Positions 11,406-56,831 of a stretch of 64,000 nucleotides of DNA are shown piece by piece. The stretch lies in the NCBI GenBank assembly GCA_947471565.1, contig CANIVT010000001.1:320612-384611 (forward strand), in the 5' to 3' direction. The notes under the pieces are model-generated. The model saw only the letters and a list, made by a program, of their open reading frames with translations, searched no databases and was not told the origin of the DNA. This DNA comes from Spartobacteria bacterium. GTDB lineage: Bacteria > Verrucomicrobiota > Verrucomicrobiia > Chthoniobacterales > UBA6821. Position 1 is the stretch's first letter. Each line of letters starts with the position of its first letter. A program made the translations under genes and the position numbers.

Positions 11406-13298
11406 ATGCGTACGCTCCGCCTCTTTCTCTACGGCATTCCTGCGGCGCTACTCGTCCTGTTGGTTGCGGCGTTCCTCAACGCCTCTATTCTCTCTGTCTC
11501 CAAGAAGAATGAAATGTCCATCGGCACCCTGGGGGAGCCCTCGACGCTGAATCCGATCCAGCAGGCCGACTCGGCCTCTTCTCAGGTCGGGGGCCTGATC
11601 TTTAATGGGCTCATCAAATACAACCAGAACCTCGAGATCGTCGGGGATCTGGCGACCAAGTGGGAGCTCTCGCAGGAGACGACATTTCAGTTTGCGACCG
11701 AGGAGGGAGCCAAAAGCGCCGACACGGCACTCGATGATGTTTGCTGGTATGTTCCCTTAAAGAGAACTCTTTCTGGAAGAGCTTTGACCATCCGCTTTGA
11801 TCAACCGGGACTGAAATCATCGGAGGATCTTAACAAACTCTTTCTTGAAAAGGGATTCCACCCACTGCCATTCCCCACGCTCGAAACAGGTGGCAAGGAG
11901 CGCCCTTTCAAGGCCGAACCCATCATCCGATTCACCCTGCGTGATGGGGTGCGCTGGCACGACGGAGCTCCCTTTACCTCAACGGATGTGGCCTTCACCT
12001 ACCGGGCGATCATGAACGAGAAGGTCGCCTCCCCGCGCCGCTCTGACTTTGATCTCGTCGACTCGGTCGAGACTCCCGATTCCCTCACCGTCATTGTCCG
12101 GTACAAAAAGCCCTTCTCTCCCGCCCTCCTGAGCTGGATGACGGCCATTTTACCGGAGCACCTCCTTGGCAAGCTCGATCCCGCCAAATGGCCCGAGGTC
12201 TACAACCGCGCGCCTGTCGGCACCGGCCCCTTCAAATTCGGCGAGTGGAAGACCAATGAATTCATCCGCCTGAAAAAGAACCCTGACTACTTCCTCGGCT
12301 CCCCGTGGCTCGATTCGGTCGTCTTCCGGGTCCTGCCCGATCCGCTCACTCTGCAGCTCGCCTTCCAGACACGGCAGGTCGATTTCTGGAATGTCGATCC
12401 TTGGGCTGTGAAGGGTCTGCAGGGCGATCATCGGTTCGACCTCTTCTCCGCTCCCGGCAATGCCTACAACTACATCGGCTGGAATCTACGCCGCCCCATG
12501 TTTCAGGACCTGAAGGTTCGCCAGGCACTCGCCCAGGCGGTGAATGTCCCCCAGATGATCAAGTACATCCTCTACGGGCACGGCGTACGGTCGACCGGCA
12601 TCTTTACGCCGCAGATGTGGTTCTTTGATCCCTCGGTAAAACCGATCCATTACGATCCTGAAGCCGCCAAGAAACTCCTCGATGAGGCGGGGTGGAAACC
12701 AGGGCCGGATGGGATCCGGCTTAAAGATGGAAAGCGATTCTCCTTTACCCTGCTGGCCAATAACGGCAATGAGGTCCGCCGCGACATCGCCACGCTTGTG
12801 CAGGATGATCTCAAGCAGGTCGGCATCGAGGTGAAGGTCGAGATCTACGAGTGGGCAGTCCTGCTCAAGCGCTTTGTGAACAAAGGTGAATTCGACGCCA
12901 TCGTCCTCGGCTGGGGGCTCGGCTACGATTTCGACCAGTATTCCATCTGGCACTCGAGCCAGACCCATCCCGAGGAACTAAACTTCGTCGGTTTCTCCGA
13001 TCCGAAGGTTGATCACCTTCTCACCGATCTTCGTCAAGAATATACCCGTCCCGAAATCATCCGATTCGCGGGGAAACTTCAGCAGACGATCTACGGTCAG
13101 CAACCCTATCTTTTCCTCTTTGTTCCGGAAGGAACAGAAGTGATGTGGAAAGGAGCTTACCGACTCCGCCATCCGGGACCTGAGGGCACTTGGATCGACG
13201 AACCCGTTCACATGACCAAGGCGGGCTGGAGCTACGACATGGAGTGGTTCTATCGTCCGGAATATCCGCCAAAGGAACAAAGGCAAAAGGCAAAATGA
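11406..13298 (+). CDS. Peptide-type ABC transporter substrate-binding protein (SBP family 5)
   Basis: This 630-residue extracytoplasmic solute-binding protein is of the DppA/OppA type. An N-terminal hydrophobic segment (LYGIPAALLVLLVAAFLNASIL) has no lipobox Cys, so it is probably membrane-anchored or cleaved by signal peptidase I. Family hallmarks are TLNPIQQ near the start, FTLRDGVRWHDGAPFTSTDV (about 180-200) and GTGPFKFGEWK. About 80 extra residues (roughly 95-175) separate the WELS strand from the FTLRDGV strand. The last residues and stop codon are supplied by a repeat element. The permeases follow. Confidence 0.9.
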   Translation: MRTLRLFLYGIPAALLVLLVAAFLNASILSVSKKNEMSIGTLGEPSTLNPIQQADSASSQVGGLIFNGLIKYNQNLEIVGDLATKWELSQETTFQFATEEGAKSADTALDDVCWYVPLKRTLSGRALTIRFDQPGLKSSEDLNKLFLEKGFHPLPFPTLETGGKERPFKAEPIIRFTLRDGVRWHDGAPFTSTDVAFTYRAIMNEKVASPRRSDFDLVDSVETPDSLTVIVRYKKPFSPALLSWMTAILPEHLLGKLDPAKWPEVYNRAPVGTGPFKFGEWKTNEFIRLKKNPDYFLGSPWLDSVVFRVLPDPLTLQLAFQTRQVDFWNVDPWAVKGLQGDHRFDLFSAPGNAYNYIGWNLRRPMFQDLKVRQALAQAVNVPQMIKYILYGHGVRSTGIFTPQMWFFDPSVKPIHYDPEAAKKLLDEAGWKPGPDGIRLKDGKRFSFTLLANNGNEVRRDIATLVQDDLKQVGIEVKVEIYEWAVLLKRFVNKGEFDAIVLGWGLGYDFDQYSIWHSSQTHPEELNFVGFSDPKVDHLLTDLRQEYTRPEIIRFAGKLQQTIYGQQPYLFLFVPEGTEVMWKGAYRLRHPGPEGTWIDEPVHMTKAGWSYDMEWFYRPEYPPKEQRQKAK

Positions 13299-13395
13299 AG
13301 AATGCAAAAACCATGATGCCTTTACCCTGGATGCCAGGCTCCAGCCCGGATGCCCCTTCCCATCTTCTTCATTTTTCATTTTTCATTCATCCTTT
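13280..13395. repeat. Miniature, gene-less relative of the four-helix-bundle cassette
   Basis: The left end (13292-13311) is a 20-bp exact match to 15261-15280. The right end (13372-13391) matches 15647-15666 at 19 of 20 positions. Only ~60 bp lie between the ends, where the full cassette carries a gene. The left end still encodes MKNAKT, the first residues of the cassette gene. It sits between the binding-protein and permease genes and supplies the binding protein's stop codon. It looks like an internal deletion derivative. Confidence 0.75.
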
Positions 13396-15250: not shown

Positions 15251-15680
15251 GGAAAAATGTAAAATGAAGAATGCAAAAACACCTAATCCCCCTGCATTGA
15301 CGCAGCGAACCAAGGATTTTGCACTCCGCATTATCAGGATGTATTCCTCCCTTCCAAAATCCTCCGTGGCCCAAGTCTTGGGAAAGCAGATTCTGCGTTC
15401 GGGAACATCAATAGGAGCCAATTACCGGGAGGCAAACAGAGCCCGTTCCAAAGCCGAGTTTATTGCCAAAATGGGCGACTCCTTGAAGGAGCTCGATGAA
15501 ACATGTTACTGGCTGGAATTACTCTCTGAATCTGGAACCGTTACCCCGGCAAAACTTCATGATCTTGCGGATGAATCCCGGCAGCTCATGGCGATTTTCA
15601 TCAGCATCATCAAAAGTGCCAAATCTACAAAGATAGACTGATCGCTTTTTTCATTTTCCATTCATCATTTTTCATTTTCC
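15251..15680. mobile_element. Putative single-gene cassette bounded by imperfect inverted repeats
   Basis: The left arm (15251-15280) and right arm (15646-15680) are purine-rich and complementary over about 29 positions with roughly five differences. The only gene inside is the four-helix-bundle protein. Both ends recur in the miniature copy at 13280-13395. The left arm contains the start codon and first residues of the gene. No transposase is present, so mobility would need help in trans. The identification as a mobile cassette is my inference. Confidence 0.55.
15264..15641 (+). CDS. Four-helix-bundle protein (23S rRNA intervening-sequence protein family)
   Basis: This 125-residue protein belongs to the S23/IVP family of pentameric-type four-helix-bundle proteins found inside 23S rRNA intervening sequences and at many intergenic sites. 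Recognisable parts are LTQRTKDFALRIIRMY, the signature LRSGTSIGANYREANRARS, KMGDSLKELDETCYWLELL, and a final amphipathic helix ending FISIIKS. The molecular function of the family is unknown. It interrupts the ABC transporter operon between dppC and the ATPase gene and is enclosed by inverted repeats. Confidence 0.9.
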   Translation: MKNAKTPNPPALTQRTKDFALRIIRMYSSLPKSSVAQVLGKQILRSGTSIGANYREANRARSKAEFIAKMGDSLKELDETCYWLELLSESGTVTPAKLHDLADESRQLMAIFISIIKSAKSTKID

Positions 15681-52239: not shown

Positions 52240-52365
52240 AAAAAAAATGGAGTTCTATAAAAGGGGATTTTGGAGGTCAAAGTCAATCCGAAAGCATCGC
52301 TTCTGAAAGAAGAATCGTGACGGCATCAGCACTCCGGTTTCAGATAGTCTTTTTTACGCCTTCCG

Positions 52366-53352
52366 ATGTCCGATCTCCTCCAGAATTACCACTATGATCT
52401 CCCGCCGGATCTGATTGCCGATCGTCCCGCCACAAGGCGTGAGGAGTCGCGGATGCTGGTGCTGGATCGAGGGAGTGGTAAAATCCTGCACCGCGGGTTT
52501 CGAGATCTCCCGGAATACCTCACCCCGTCGGATCTGCTCGTCCTCAATGACAGCCGGGTGATTCCCGCCCGCCTGCACGATCCTTCCGGGAAAATCGAGA
52601 TTCTGCTTCTGGTGCAACGCTCCCCCACTCTCTGGACGGCCATGGTCCGTCCCGGGAAGAAGATGCGGGTTGGAGACCATGCCGAGGTGGCCGCCACAAC
52701 GGCCAAGGTTAAGGAGGTACTTGAAGACGGCACCCGTCTGCTAGAGTTCGCCAAGGAGCCGGATCTCAATCGTTACGGGGAGATGCCGATTCCACCCTAT
52801 TTCCATCGACCTGCCGATGACCAGGACAAGGAGCGCTACCAGACGGTCTATGCCCGGGATCCAGGCTCGGTGGCGGCACCCACGGCGGGGCTCCACTTCA
52901 CTACGAAAATCCTGGCCGGACTGAATCATGCGTTTGTCACTCTCCATGTCGGTGCGGGTACATTCCAACCCGTGAAGCATGATGACCTTTCGCTCCATCG
53001 GATGCACTCCGAGCACTACACCCTTCCGGAGGAAACGGCCCGACGGATCAATGAGACCAAGGCTGCGGCAGGACGCGTCGTCGCCGTCGGCACCACCACG
53101 ACACGTGTGCTGGAGTCACAACCCCCAGGCCCTCTCTCCGCGAGAAGCGGATCAACGGATATCTTCATCCGTCCGCCGTATGAGTTCCAACGGGTCGACG
53201 CCCTGTTGACGAACTTTCACCTGCCGGGCTCGACCCTGCTCATGCTCGTGAGCGCAATGGCTGGCCGGGAAAGGATCCTAGCCGCCTATGAGGAAGCCGT
53301 GAGGGAGCGATACCGATTCTTCAGCTACGGGGACTGCATGCTGATCGTGTGA
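52366..53352 (+). CDS. queA: tRNA preQ1(34) S-adenosylmethionine ribosyltransferase-isomerase
   Basis: This 328-residue enzyme makes epoxyqueuosine in tRNA by transferring the ribosyl part of SAM. Hallmarks are YDLPPDLIADRPATRREESRML, LLVLNDSRVIPARL, VAAPTAGLHFT, HVGAGTFQPV and LTNFHLPGSTLLMLVSAMAG. Length is slightly below the ~345 of most QueA. Tgt, an earlier step of the same pathway, lies 2.3 kb downstream on the other strand. Confidence 0.96.
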   Translation: MSDLLQNYHYDLPPDLIADRPATRREESRMLVLDRGSGKILHRGFRDLPEYLTPSDLLVLNDSRVIPARLHDPSGKIEILLLVQRSPTLWTAMVRPGKKMRVGDHAEVAATTAKVKEVLEDGTRLLEFAKEPDLNRYGEMPIPPYFHRPADDQDKERYQTVYARDPGSVAAPTAGLHFTTKILAGLNHAFVTLHVGAGTFQPVKHDDLSLHRMHSEHYTLPEETARRINETKAAAGRVVAVGTTTTRVLESQPPGPLSARSGSTDIFIRPPYEFQRVDALLTNFHLPGSTLLMLVSAMAGRERILAAYEEAVRERYRFFSYGDCMLIV

Positions 53353-53364
53353 GATCCCGAAAGC

Positions 53365-53550
53365 TCACGCGAACCCGCGGAGAGCGCGGAGGGATTGTGA
53401 ATCTGAAAATCAGGAAGCGGGAAAACAACTGCTTGGAGGACGTTGCTTCTTGAGAGCAAGCAGACCCTGAATTTCTCCTCTTTGTTTTCCTGTTTTCAGA
53501 TTTTCCCAAGGCCTTTTCCCCTCCGCGGCCCCCGCGCCTCCGCGTAAAAT
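53365..53550. repeat. Gene-less extended palindrome related to the GxxExxY cassette ends
   Basis: The outer arms are GC-rich. The left has GAGCGCGGAGGGATTG; the right, read on the other strand, has ACGCGGAGGCGCGGGG. Both match the ends of the cassette at 55183-55682. Inside are a second pair of arms (AATCTGAAAATCAGGAA against AAATCTGAAAACAGGAA) and a central CTGCTTG/CAAGCAG pair. The whole ~185 bp could fold as one nested cruciform. No gene lies in it. Confidence 0.65.
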
Positions 53551-53576
53551 TCCCCGCTTTTAATTCAGTTTTTTCT

Positions 53577-53610
53577 TCAGCCTTTCACCTTTAGCCTTCA
53601 GCCTTTTCCG
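53577..53610 (+). repeat. Low-complexity TTCAGCC repeat before the HD-domain gene
   Basis: CTTCAGCC, TTTAGCC and TTCAGCC words alternate directly upstream of the start at 53611. They share vocabulary with the repeats at 6517 and 11360 and with a degenerate copy near 56845-56875. Confidence 0.45.
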
Positions 53611-54660
53611 ATGCCTCTGCTTACGATTTCTGAACTGAAAAAGGCCGCCCGAGAGTCCTCTCCTGTCGAGGCCTCGGTGCATGCCCAGATCGAGAAGATC
53701 ACCCGCAAGGAGGCCTCCAACGGGAAACCCTTCCAAGAACTCCAGCTTCGGGACGGAGCAGACTCGATGACGCTGCGTGCCTGGAGCGATACCGAGGCCT
53801 TTGAGGCATGCTCTGTACTCGAAACGGGCACCTTCGTGGCTGTGGAGGGAATCTTCAGTCACAGTGCCGCCTTCGGACTTGACTCCAAGCGCTGGGAAAT
53901 TGCGCGGCTCGATGACGATGCCATGGAGGCCCTACTGGAAGGCTCCGAGGAACGCAGGTTACTGCTCCAACGCTGCGACCAGGTGATCACCCAAGCGGTC
54001 GCCTCGATCACTGATCCGAGACTGAAAGCCCTTTGTGGCCGATTTCTGGATCAATACGGAGCGCGGTTCCGTCGTTCCGCTGCCGCCCGGGGAAATCACC
54101 ATGCCCGCCGGGGAGGTCTGCTCGAGCACACCTCGCGGATGATGGAATCGGCGCTCGCTCTCTGCGGTGTCTATCCGGAACTCAACCGCGATCTGATCAT
54201 TTCAGGCGTCCTGTTTCACGACACGGGCAAACTCTGGGAGACCTGCCCGCCGGAACGGGGGTTCGGGATTGTCCCCGAACTGCGTGGCGAACTGCTCGGC
54301 CATCTCTCCATCGGCATCGAACTGGTCAACACCCTCTGGCGCGATCTCCCCAAGGAGGGCTGGGAGGGATTCACCCCCTCCTCCGAAGATCTCCGTCTGC
54401 ACCTGCTCCACCTGATAGCCTCCCACCATGGACAGCTGGAATTTGGTTCCCCGGTGCTTCCCAAGACCCCTGAGGCCGCCCTTCTTCACTTTGTCGACAA
54501 TATCGATGCCCGGATGGAGATGTTCTTCTCGGCTTATCAGTCCAGCACCCCCGGGAGGGAGGGTCCCTTGGAATGGGTCAGGGCCCTCGGCGTCAGCCCT
54601 GTTCCCTCTTTGGATTCCTTCAGGAATCTGGCATCTCCCCAGGACGAGCTTCCGTTGTGA
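53611..54660 (+). CDS. OB-HD domain phosphohydrolase (YhaM-like 3'-5' exoribonuclease family)
   Basis: This 349-residue protein has an N-terminal OB fold (VHAQIEKITRKEASNGKPFQEL, LETGTFVAVEGIFS) followed by an HD domain. The HD metal site is in RGGLLEHTSRMMESAL and VLFHDTGKLWE, with further ligands in LIASHHGQLEFGSP and LLHFVDNIDARM. This is the architecture of YhaM, which trims RNA or DNA from the 3' end. YhaM is usually ~315 residues; the extra length is in the C-terminus. It lies directly after a repeat region. Confidence 0.85.
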   Translation: MPLLTISELKKAARESSPVEASVHAQIEKITRKEASNGKPFQELQLRDGADSMTLRAWSDTEAFEACSVLETGTFVAVEGIFSHSAAFGLDSKRWEIARLDDDAMEALLEGSEERRLLLQRCDQVITQAVASITDPRLKALCGRFLDQYGARFRRSAAARGNHHARRGGLLEHTSRMMESALALCGVYPELNRDLIISGVLFHDTGKLWETCPPERGFGIVPELRGELLGHLSIGIELVNTLWRDLPKEGWEGFTPSSEDLRLHLLHLIASHHGQLEFGSPVLPKTPEAALLHFVDNIDARMEMFFSAYQSSTPGREGPLEWVRALGVSPVPSLDSFRNLASPQDELPL

Positions 54661-54725
54661 TTTTTCGATACCTTCTCTCTTTGAACTTGCAGAGAAAGCC
54701 ATGTGGAAATAGAAAAAACTCCCCT

Positions 54726-55151
54726 GTGAAAACTTCCCCCCTACTCACGATTATCGTTCTCCTCTGCGGTACCGTTGCTGCGATGGCCGACATTCAGGCC
54801 CCGCCCCAATCAGACCAGGGACCGACAAAGAAACTCGGTCGAGGACTGGGAAACATGCTGTACGGTTCCACGGAGATCTTTGACTCCATGTCCAATGTGA
54901 ATTACTCGGAAGGCAATTCCGCCGCTTTTAGCTACGGACTCGTTCGTGGTGTCGGCCGCACACTGGCGCGTCTGGGGTACGGACTATTCGAAACGGTGAC
55001 CTTCCCCTTCCCGACCAATCACGGCACTTACAAGCCCCCTTATCAGAATAACATCCAGTGGCTGAATTCTGGCTACTCAGAGTTCCCTCCGGAAGTCGGA
55101 TTCGAGACCAAGTACGACTACTCCCGCCAGTACTCGAGTCAGAGTTGGTGA
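54726..55151 (+). CDS. Exosortase-system-associated protein (TIGR04073-type)
   Basis: This 141-residue exported protein has a GTG start at 54726 (VKTSPLLTIIVLLCGTVAA as signal). The conserved core is KKLGRGLGNMLYGSTEIFD, then GLVRGVGRTLARLGYGLFE and TVTFPFPTNHGTYKPPY. This pattern matches TIGR04073, a family that co-occurs with exosortase systems in Verrucomicrobia and relatives. No exosortase or PEP-CTERM protein is seen in this window. The molecular role is unknown. An ATG at 54573 lies inside the preceding gene and is rejected. Confidence 0.8.
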   Translation: MKTSPLLTIIVLLCGTVAAMADIQAPPQSDQGPTKKLGRGLGNMLYGSTEIFDSMSNVNYSEGNSAAFSYGLVRGVGRTLARLGYGLFETVTFPFPTNHGTYKPPYQNNIQWLNSGYSEFPPEVGFETKYDYSRQYSSQSW

Positions 55152-55182
55152 TCCAAGTCGCTTGGCGATTTGGAGAGGAAGA

Positions 55183-55682
55183 TCACGCGGAGGCGCAGGG
55201 AGCGCGGAGGAATTGATTCATGGAAATCGACGATATCACCCACGCTGTCATTGAAGATTCCATTAGGATCCACAGAGATCTTGGGCCCGGGTTGATGGAA
55301 TCAGTTTACGAATCAGTTCTTGCCAGTTCCTTGGAACGACGTGGACTCAAAACCGAACGACAAAAGACCGTCCGGTTTGTGTACGACGGTATGACTTTTG
55401 ACGAGGGAATGAGAATTGACCTCCTAGTTGAAAGCCGTCTGATCATTGAACTGAAATCCGTTGAGAAACTCTCTCCCGTGCACGGAAAACAGCTTCTTAC
55501 CTATCTACGCTTGATGGATCTTCAAGTGGGTCTTCTAATCAACTTTGGTTCAGCAACACTCAAGGAAGGGCTTCGCCGCGTTGTCAATCAGCTGCCTGCC
55601 TCGGCATCATCCCACCTGAGAGTTAATCGGGGAAAAATTCTCTAACCCCCTCTCTCCTCCGCGTCCCCGCGCCTCCGCGTGA
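55183..55682. mobile_element. Putative GxxExxY cassette bounded by inverted repeats
   Basis: The left arm (55183-55211) and the right arm (55655-55682, opposite strand) match over 29 positions with one mismatch and one gap, with the shared words TCACGCGGAGGCGC and CGCGGAGGA. The only gene inside is the GxxExxY protein. The GGAGGA at the inner end of the left arm is placed as its ribosome-binding site, 8 bp before the ATG. A gene-less relative lies at 53365-53550. Mobility is inferred. Confidence 0.6.
55220..55645 (+). CDS. GxxExxY protein
   Basis: This 141-residue protein has the family-naming motif GPGLMESVYESVLASSLE near residue 23. A nuclease-like core is visible as MRIDLLVESRLIIELKSVEKLSPVHGKQLLTYLRLM, which contains the D-(x)n-E-x-K arrangement of PD-(D/E)XK nucleases. 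The end has LINFGSATLKEGLRRVVN. The function of the family is not established; a nuclease-like fold is my inference. It is more AT-rich than its neighbours and enclosed in inverted repeats. Confidence 0.9.
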   Translation: MEIDDITHAVIEDSIRIHRDLGPGLMESVYESVLASSLERRGLKTERQKTVRFVYDGMTFDEGMRIDLLVESRLIIELKSVEKLSPVHGKQLLTYLRLMDLQVGLLINFGSATLKEGLRRVVNQLPASASSHLRVNRGKIL

Positions 55683-55685
55683 ACT

Positions 55686-56831
55686 TCAGCTGATTTCGGT
55701 CGGATTCCAGACTCGGTAGCCCGCGACAAACTCCCTGCGGAATTCCGCAAAGGTACCGTCCAGAATCGACGAGCGGATCTTCCTCATCAGAGTCATGTAA
55801 AAATGGAGGTTATGCAGGGTGACAAGACGCAGCCCCAGGATCTCCTCGGCCTTGATCAGATGGCGCAGATAGGCGCGTGAAAAGGTCGTGCACGCAGGGC
55901 AGACACATCCCTCCTCGATCGGTCCGGGATCACGGGTAAAGGGCGCGTTTTTGAGATTCAGTGTTCCATCGGCGGTGAACGCCGTCCCGTTGCGGGCGAT
56001 CCGTGTGGGAAGGACGCAGTCGAACATGTCAATCCCGCGGGCCACCATCTCCACAAGCTGAGGTGGGGTGCCGAGTCCCATGGCATACCGTGGTGACTCC
56101 TCCGGCAGGAAGGGGACGCTGGATTCTACCGCCTTCATCATCTCGGGCTCAGGCTCCCCGACACTCACACCGCCGACCGCATATCCGTCGAACCCGATCT
56201 CCACAAGGGATCGTGCAGAGCGTTCCCTCAGATCAGCATAAGAGCTTCCCTGGACGATTCCGAAAAGGAGCGGCCGTCCCTCCTGGGGTTGCTCCCGCCA
56301 CCAATCACGCGAACGGCGCTCCCAACGGGTCGTGAGTTCGAGACTCTTTGCCGCCTCCTCATAGGTGCAGGGAAACGGCGGGCACTCGTCGAAGGCCATC
56401 ACCACGTCGCTGCCGAGATCCCGCTGGATCTGCATCGAGGTCTCCGGGCCGATGAAGGTGGGAGTGCCATCGAGATGATTCTGGAAGTGGACTCCCTCCT
56501 CGGTGATGCGGCGAAGCTTGGAAAGGGAGAAGACCTGAAATCCCCCACTATCGGTCAGGATCGAGCGATCCCAGCCCATGAAGGAATGAAGCCCACCCAG
56601 ATCACGGATGACCTCCTCTCCGGGACGGACGTGCAGATGGTAGGTATTTCCCAGGATGATGCGGGCTCCGAGAGCCCTGAGCTCGTCAGGGGAGACCGCC
56701 TTGACCGTGGCCTGGGTGCCCACCGGCATGAAGACCGGCGTCTCCACATCCCCACGCCTCGTGTGCAGGATCCCCGCACGAGCTTTGCTGGAGGAATCAG
56801 TCTTGAGAAGGGTATAGGGCGTGGAACTCAC
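55686..56831 (-). CDS. tgt: Queuine/preQ1 tRNA-ribosyltransferase
   Basis: This 381-residue enzyme exchanges guanine 34 for preQ1 in tRNAs with GUN anticodons. The catalytic Asp and substrate pocket are in SILTDSGGFQVFSL and VMAFDECPPFPC. GFDGYAVGGVSVGEP is the family motif. The zinc site is CVCPACTTFSRAYLRHL with a later His in LVTLHNLHFYMTLM. It starts at 56831 (MSSTPYTLLKTDSSS). Confidence 0.97.
   Translation of the reverse strand: MSSTPYTLLKTDSSSKARAGILHTRRGDVETPVFMPVGTQATVKAVSPDELRALGARIILGNTYHLHVRPGEEVIRDLGGLHSFMGWDRSILTDSGGFQVFSLSKLRRITEEGVHFQNHLDGTPTFIGPETSMQIQRDLGSDVVMAFDECPPFPCTYEEAAKSLELTTRWERRSRDWWREQPQEGRPLLFGIVQGSSYADLRERSARSLVEIGFDGYAVGGVSVGEPEPEMMKAVESSVPFLPEESPRYAMGLGTPPQLVEMVARGIDMFDCVLPTRIARNGTAFTADGTLNLKNAPFTRDPGPIEEGCVCPACTTFSRAYLRHLIKAEEILGLRLVTLHNLHFYMTLMRKIRSSILDGTFAEFRREFVAGYRVWNPTEIS

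Follow-up and report, generated by a model that had tools for sequence, protein, structure and literature searches.

The 186-base segment 53365-53550 of the window, namely the 64,000-nucleotide stretch of Spartobacteria DNA analysed here, contains two inverted arm pairs, one enclosing the other, in the spacer between a queA-like gene and a gene for an HD-domain protein (Table 1). We consider it probable that one gene-less element encloses another in this segment, the outer one, defined by a CGCGGAG-type shell, belonging to the GxxExxY family and the inner one, with a TCAGGAA-type shell, to a second GxxExxY subfamily; the arms would then be putative DNA sites of the cognate nuclease, and the gene-less copies would be maintained or spread in trans.

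Table 1. Features of the nested palindrome, its context and the related cassettes, in window coordinates
Feature	Position	Strand	Basis or remark
Gene-less copy, AATGAAA-type arms	13280..13387		Arm match
Sister cassette with AATGAAA-type arms around a four-helix-bundle (IVS-type) gene	15254..15678	+	Arm match, family match
queA-like gene, upstream context	52366..53352	+	PF02547
Outer left arm	53367..53393	+	Triplet of CGCGGAG-type 8-mers, spacing 8/9
Inner left arm	53400..53428	+	8-mers ATCTGAAA/ATCAGGAA/GCGGGAAA, end of TCAGGAA subfamily
Unique core, about 53 nt, gene-less	53429..53481		Contains CTGCTTG/CAAGCAG pair
Inner right arm	53482..53505	-	TCAGGAA subfamily
Outer right arm	53519..53545	-	CGCGGAG-type triplet on minus strand, spacing 8/9
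HD-domain and OB-fold protein, downstream context	53611..54660	+	PF01966
Full cassette, left arm	55178..55211	+	CGCRGAG-like 8-mer triplet
GxxExxY protein, predicted PD-(D/E)XK nuclease fold, 141 aa	55220..55645	+	PF13366, TIGR04256, structure model
Full cassette, right arm	55653..55687	-	CGCRGAG-like 8-mer triplet

The nested palindrome claimed for this segment in a preliminary description is borne out by the coordinates and the complementarity of both arm pairs. The outer arms, 27 nt each, are 78% complementary, and the inner arms are 83% complementary over 24 nt (53405-53428/53482-53505), with a perfect match between 53400-53409 and 53493-53502. The two shells are about 6 nt apart on the left and about 13 nt on the right. 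Together with its flanks (53340-53575) the segment folds as RNA to -90.3 kcal/mol, against -67.6 for shuffled sequence (z -4.98); folded as DNA the same stretch has a z of -5.15, and the element alone one of -4.74. In each of these three comparisons none of 200 shuffles was as stable. The CTGCTTG/CAAGCAG pair that had been proposed to close the structure is indeed present (53429-53435/53457-53463), but the minimum-energy folds make no use of it. In an unbiased scan covering 392 kb of the own genome (72 of 464 kb, in masked stretches, being left out), 14 arm pairs passed the score cut of 30, against about 6.5 expected from a rate of one null hit per 60 kb; taken singly, both the outer and the inner arm pair of the segment fall below this cut. 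What is surprising about the segment is the nesting and the family relations of its arms; the single arms are not exceptional.

The outer arms match the ends of the full GxxExxY cassette (55178-55201/55664-55687), as had been proposed, and both sets consist of CGCRGAG-like 8-mer triplets with a spacing of 8/9. Across the 2.28-Mb own genome the outer-arm pattern, allowing up to 3 mismatches, has 26 matches, against 10 for the reversed pattern. Inspected singly, the 26 comprise 2 copies that bear the gene, 11 that are paired but lack GxxExxY (a small unrelated reading frame lies inside one of these), 4 single arms and some unrelated sequences. A family search added 2 GxxExxY genes, bringing the total to 4, all within CGC-type arms; with 2 other copies, the paired CGC-type copies devoid of GxxExxY number at least 13. 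The analysis supports a kinship of the gene-less segment with the GxxExxY cassette, the existence of further copies, and the continued matching of the two arms of one element. The cores of these copies are dissimilar by eye, contrary to a classical MITE burst. Other nestings, some with one arm absent, are found in the own genome on C5 (L067), C15 (L088), C8 (L081) and C3 (L006). At one locus of this genome (L009/L025; C15:16887-17168 of G000), CGCGGAG arms surround a small cysteine-rich reading frame which resembles a host gene, as if captured.

The TCAGGAA-type pattern of the inner shell, likewise with up to 3 mismatches, has 23 matches in the own genome against 6 when reversed, part of them being chance matches. 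No TCAGGAA copy with a gene inside came to light in the own genome. Such copies are present elsewhere in the genus, with four among 26 loci inspected, namely L292 (G002), L293 (G014), L294 (G009) and L295 (G001), and their GxxExxY proteins form a single clade with support of 100/99. Since TCAGGAA arms flank GxxExxY genes that form one clade, the two shells are the ends of two GxxExxY subfamilies. Outer and inner arms alike are equal to arm triplets found around GxxExxY genes, and there is no GxxExxY gene inside 53365-53550. The segment consists of two nested elements of different GxxExxY subfamilies, the inner with gene-bearing relatives of its own in sister species, which goes beyond the reading in the preliminary description.

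The cassette gene encodes a member of the GxxExxY/PDDEXK_3 family (TIGR04256, PF13366). An AlphaFold2 model of the protein, based on a 51-sequence alignment, has a mean pLDDT of 88.9, and its best matches in the PDB are PD-(D/E)XK nucleases, the first being 4ic1 (SSO0001, which we take to be a Cas4; Z 9.5, 110 residues, 5.0 Å rmsd); comparison of the model with the Holliday-junction resolvase 1gef gave a Z of 6.8. Foldseek returned no match to the model at E ≤0.001, and the one sequence match of GxxExxY to solved structures, at E 0.72, is not meaningful. Each of the 51 aligned proteins has the four residues E27, D67, E77 and K79, which do not vary and are presumably catalytic, to judge by the PD-(D/E)XK motif. 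The predicted fold, the D...ExK residues, the PF13366 assignment and the PDB matches together place the cassette protein in the PD-(D/E)XK class.

A second type of cassette with the same architecture is present in the window, where a four-helix-bundle gene and a gene-less copy, both with period-7 arms, lie 1.9 kb apart in one operon. The preliminary description had cited a full/mini pair in an operon that it labelled dpp as a parallel to the present case; the pair exists, but it has different ends and carries this four-helix-bundle gene rather than GxxExxY. Both gene families are widespread, with GxxExxY (TIGR04256) found in 116 and the four-helix-bundle family TIGR02436 (23S IVS-type) in 117 of the 147 genomes of the order. 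Inverted arms scoring above the 99th percentile of shuffles flank GxxExxY at 29 of 33 loci in the order (one of 34 was dropped for short flanks), 30 of 33 four-helix loci and 63 of 79 GxxExxY loci taken across phyla (80 fetched, one dropped), although many of the last represent one orthologous sphingomonad site and are therefore not independent counts. The match between left and right arms within a locus exceeds the 95th cross-locus percentile in 20/33, 29/33 and 32/79 loci of these three sets, respectively. The arm units are diverse, including CGCGGAG, CGCGAAG, CACGGAG, CACCAAG, CAGGAT, CACAAAA and others around GxxExxY, and GTTGAGA, GTGACGT, GTCGAGA, GGCTGAA and others around four-helix genes.

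Filtering by arm score and arm length left 42 cross-phylum, 26 order-level and 30 four-helix loci for the tests of period and prediction. The mean autocorrelation of the arms peaks at lag 8 in the cross-phylum GxxExxY loci, at lag 9 in those of the order and at lag 7 in the four-helix loci. The gene family was predicted by the nearest-neighbour arms in 52 of 56 cases (shuffle mean 27.75, maximum 41). When arm families, assigned for 41 of 52 GxxExxY proteins, are mapped onto the tree of these proteins, the labels require 20 changes against a shuffled mean of 35.8, with none of 200 shuffles as low. Co-segregation of the arms both with the nuclease clade and with the gene family agrees with the arms being recognised by their cognate protein, although the link between arm and clade could also reflect mere co-inheritance of linked DNA.

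The same co-segregation bears on the alternative that an unrelated transposase, such as an IS enzyme or a RAYT-type Y1 enzyme, moves these copies in the manner of MITEs or REPINs, the GxxExxY and four-helix genes being mere passengers. Gene-less inverted-repeat copies with a patchy presence at orthologous spacers count in favour of this alternative, and REPINs (PMC3116915) are a system of this kind. Against this stand the adherence of arm family to nuclease clade and gene family, and the structure of the ends, in that a single arm of 53365-53550 contains no inverted repeat reaching 8 nt, unlike the palindromic REP ends. We regard an unrelated transposase as unlikely.

The spacer between queA and the HD-domain gene was compared in 16 congeners, the own genome (G000) included. 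Both shells together are found in G000 only; the outer type alone is present in G012 and the inner type alone in G008 and G002. Other tandem 7-8-mer repeats occupy the spacer in G003, G007, G006, G004, G013, G001 and G015, whereas it is without an element in G011 (about 55 nt) and in G014, G005 and G009 (13-17 nt); in G010 the contig starts inside the spacer. Both shells are missing at this site from G003, which is the closest relative at 93% protein identity. A second locus holds a 150-bp CGCAGAG element in the own genome and a short spacer in G003, and at a third locus one decayed copy is common to both. The orthologue in G002 of the full cassette at 55220 (L304) has a stop codon in its ORF and has lost the right arm, and truncated pieces of GxxExxY genes are frequent in the genus. 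The orthologous spacers compared revealed neither a target-site duplication nor a clean boundary of insertion, the empty spacers being too diverged for boundaries at base level. The congener pattern is one of gain, loss and decay.

In another alternative the elements are inactive relics, that is, old insertions devoid of present mobility whose arms are kept alike by gene conversion or by purifying selection for another role, such as protein binding or chromosome organisation. The decayed genes, fragments and single arms, the orthologous copy common to the own genome and G003, and the one vertically inherited sphingomonad site are all compatible with this explanation, but the presence and absence of elements among close relatives and the intact active-site residues in 51/51 aligned proteins argue against it, and we consider it improbable.

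The sphingomonad site lies between fabD and fabG, where a GxxExxY cassette is present in at least 27 of the 30 sphingomonad genomes searched (L281, L311-L337), and is a long-lived, vertically inherited insertion within the fatty-acid synthesis operon. Its arms vary by species (CGCGGAG, CGCGAAG, GCGCAGAG). Over the 27 genomes, left and right arm have 23.8/25 positions in common within a genome versus 20.8 across genomes, a difference that none of 5000 permutations reached; both arms share the 8/9 spacing in 27/27 sites, and the 9-base spacing, wherever present (3 genomes), occurs in both arms. When nearest relatives served as the control, the matching was better in 6, worse in 3 and tied in 1 of the 10 informative cases, and relatedness therefore accounts for part of it.

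Concentric shells comparable to those of 53365-53550 were looked for in 40 regions around further arm matches in the sphingomonad genomes. Both arms are of one type in 42 of 47 bracketed arm pairs. There are 17 nestings, distributed over 15 of the 40 regions, and all of them follow the order CGCGAAG outside CGCGGAG outside CGCAGAG; a reversed order was seen at L361 under a looser pattern. As the regions were chosen by CGCGAAG-type matches, the frequency of that type is biased, whereas the shell order is not. Short gaps, nearly the same on either side, separate the shells; they measure mostly 8-25 nt, with exceptions of 28, 40, 52, 58 and 78 nt, and some of them are themselves complementary (L358). 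The innermost cores are of similar length in nested and solitary copies, mostly 63-114 nt, apart from 36 nt in three solitary copies and 208 and 273 nt in two nested ones. The DNA fold of a triple shell (L353) has a z of -15.6. The segment 53365-53550 has the same concentric design, built from other subfamilies. To our knowledge, the fixed order of the shells is not explained by any known system.

Whether these structures act as DNA or as RNA can be approached through the mismatches between arms, which, in a hairpin selected as RNA, should lean towards G-U-compatible pairs in the gene-sense strand. No such excess was seen in the three sets of loci (47 vs 39, 21 vs 43 and 45 vs 49), and this wobble test gives no support to the recognition of an RNA hairpin by a trans-acting enzyme. 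No Rfam family was matched up to E 1 over 52300-55900, and a consensus scan found neither an intrinsic terminator nor a sigma-70 promoter. The lack of a G-U excess, of an Rfam family and of a terminator-like site speaks for a role at the DNA level, short of proof. These observations weigh against an RNA-level element, namely a hairpin in the queA-HD transcript that is cut by RNase III or stabilises the mRNA, akin to the 23S rRNA intervening sequences, as does its absence from this spacer in most congeners. The strong RNA fold and the occurrence of IVS-type four-helix-bundle genes in the same kind of cassette count in its favour, and on balance it seems a doubtful explanation. The four-helix protein is presumably a homologue of Avd. 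As to a reverse transcriptase acting in trans, there was no PF00078 match in G000 and 14 further congeners, with G001 alone among the 16 having one; hence, given that the own genome has none, such an enzyme is not needed for the elements.

The closest parallels among known systems are only partial. REPINs are described in PMC3116915 as many-copy extragenic inverted-repeat elements tied to a distinct enzyme gene with the same flanks, for which a long co-evolution was proposed. The present elements resemble the REPIN/RAYT system in being short, extragenic, inverted repeats of many copies, related to an enzyme gene flanked by the same sequence, but differ in that their ends are three direct 8-mers or so instead of a palindromic REP, in that the gene encodes a PD-(D/E)XK nuclease or four-helix protein instead of a Y1 transposase, and in their concentric shells. 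With IS-derived MITEs they share gene-less derivatives that have the ends of a gene-bearing form; unlike these, the full form has no transposase gene, no target duplication was seen at the spacers compared, and the cores look dissimilar. The 23S rRNA intervening sequences with an S23/four-helix-bundle ORF, whose origin and mobility are treated as open in PMC4990558, likewise have a small four-helix-bundle gene between complementary ends. However, the cassettes described here lie between protein genes, and 53365-53550, itself gene-less and related to GxxExxY, sits between queA and the HD-domain gene and not in a 23S helix. A passage on GxxExxY in one open-licence PMC article mentions neither arms nor gene-less copies, and the open-licence PMC literature gave no match for PDDEXK_3, five arm 15-mers or nested palindromes.

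In our analysis, the best reading of 53365-53550 and its relatives would be that of DNA-level sites of a PD-(D/E)XK nuclease which, with gene-less derivatives, form a REPIN-like population without a known transposase. The full element would comprise a nuclease gene of about 125 codons between inverted arms, each of three tandem 8-mers or thereabouts. The arms would serve as DNA sites of the cognate nuclease, whose binding and cutting are suggested by the matched arms, the arm-clade co-segregation and the conserved catalytic residues. Acting in trans, the nuclease may maintain or spread the gene-less copies as a population within the genome, just as RAYT does with REPINs. Nested shells would arise where one element comes to occupy, or to be enclosed by, the space between the arms of another, either through insertion at the apex of a short-loop hairpin or through new arms enclosing an existing element; insertion, capture and arm conversion are all compatible with the present data.

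More tentatively, one might envisage a class of transposase-free elements whose inverted triplets of 7-9-mers are recognised by a co-evolving protein, either a PD-(D/E)XK nuclease (GxxExxY) or a 23S IVS-type four-helix-bundle protein, and which keep gene-less populations and build concentric shells of fixed order by cargo replacement or hairpin-apex insertion. A single element architecture would then link two widespread and hitherto unexplained small gene families, GxxExxY and four-helix-bundle, and would bear on the origin of the 23S rRNA intervening sequences and the role of their protein. It also predicts a DNA recognition code of three octamers per end, which would differ between nuclease clades and is open to direct testing in vitro.

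The wider distribution of these cassettes includes several informative sites. With respect to phage carriage, tblastn gave no match in 50,697 records, and 8 plasmid records had a match. In Planktothrix plasmids (L283, L284), GATTTACGATTT and CCCAATCC repeats flank a four-helix-bundle gene that lies between the DISARM gene drmD and a methyltransferase-type gene; in the Planktothrix plasmid copies all sites are filled. In Bacteroides finegoldii (L282), GxxExxY lies between radA and an FAD-protein gene, with arms CACAGAG/ACGCAGAG/ACACGGAG. A distant empty site for this locus is seen in Parabacteroides distasonis, where 13 nt separate radA from the next gene, and in Phocaeicola the element is absent from the radA site, which has another gene instead. 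Finally, tandem TTCAGCC heptads occupy 53577-53608 of the window, directly before the HD-domain gene, and recur at the same place in several congeners; they may represent an arm left over from a third family of elements.
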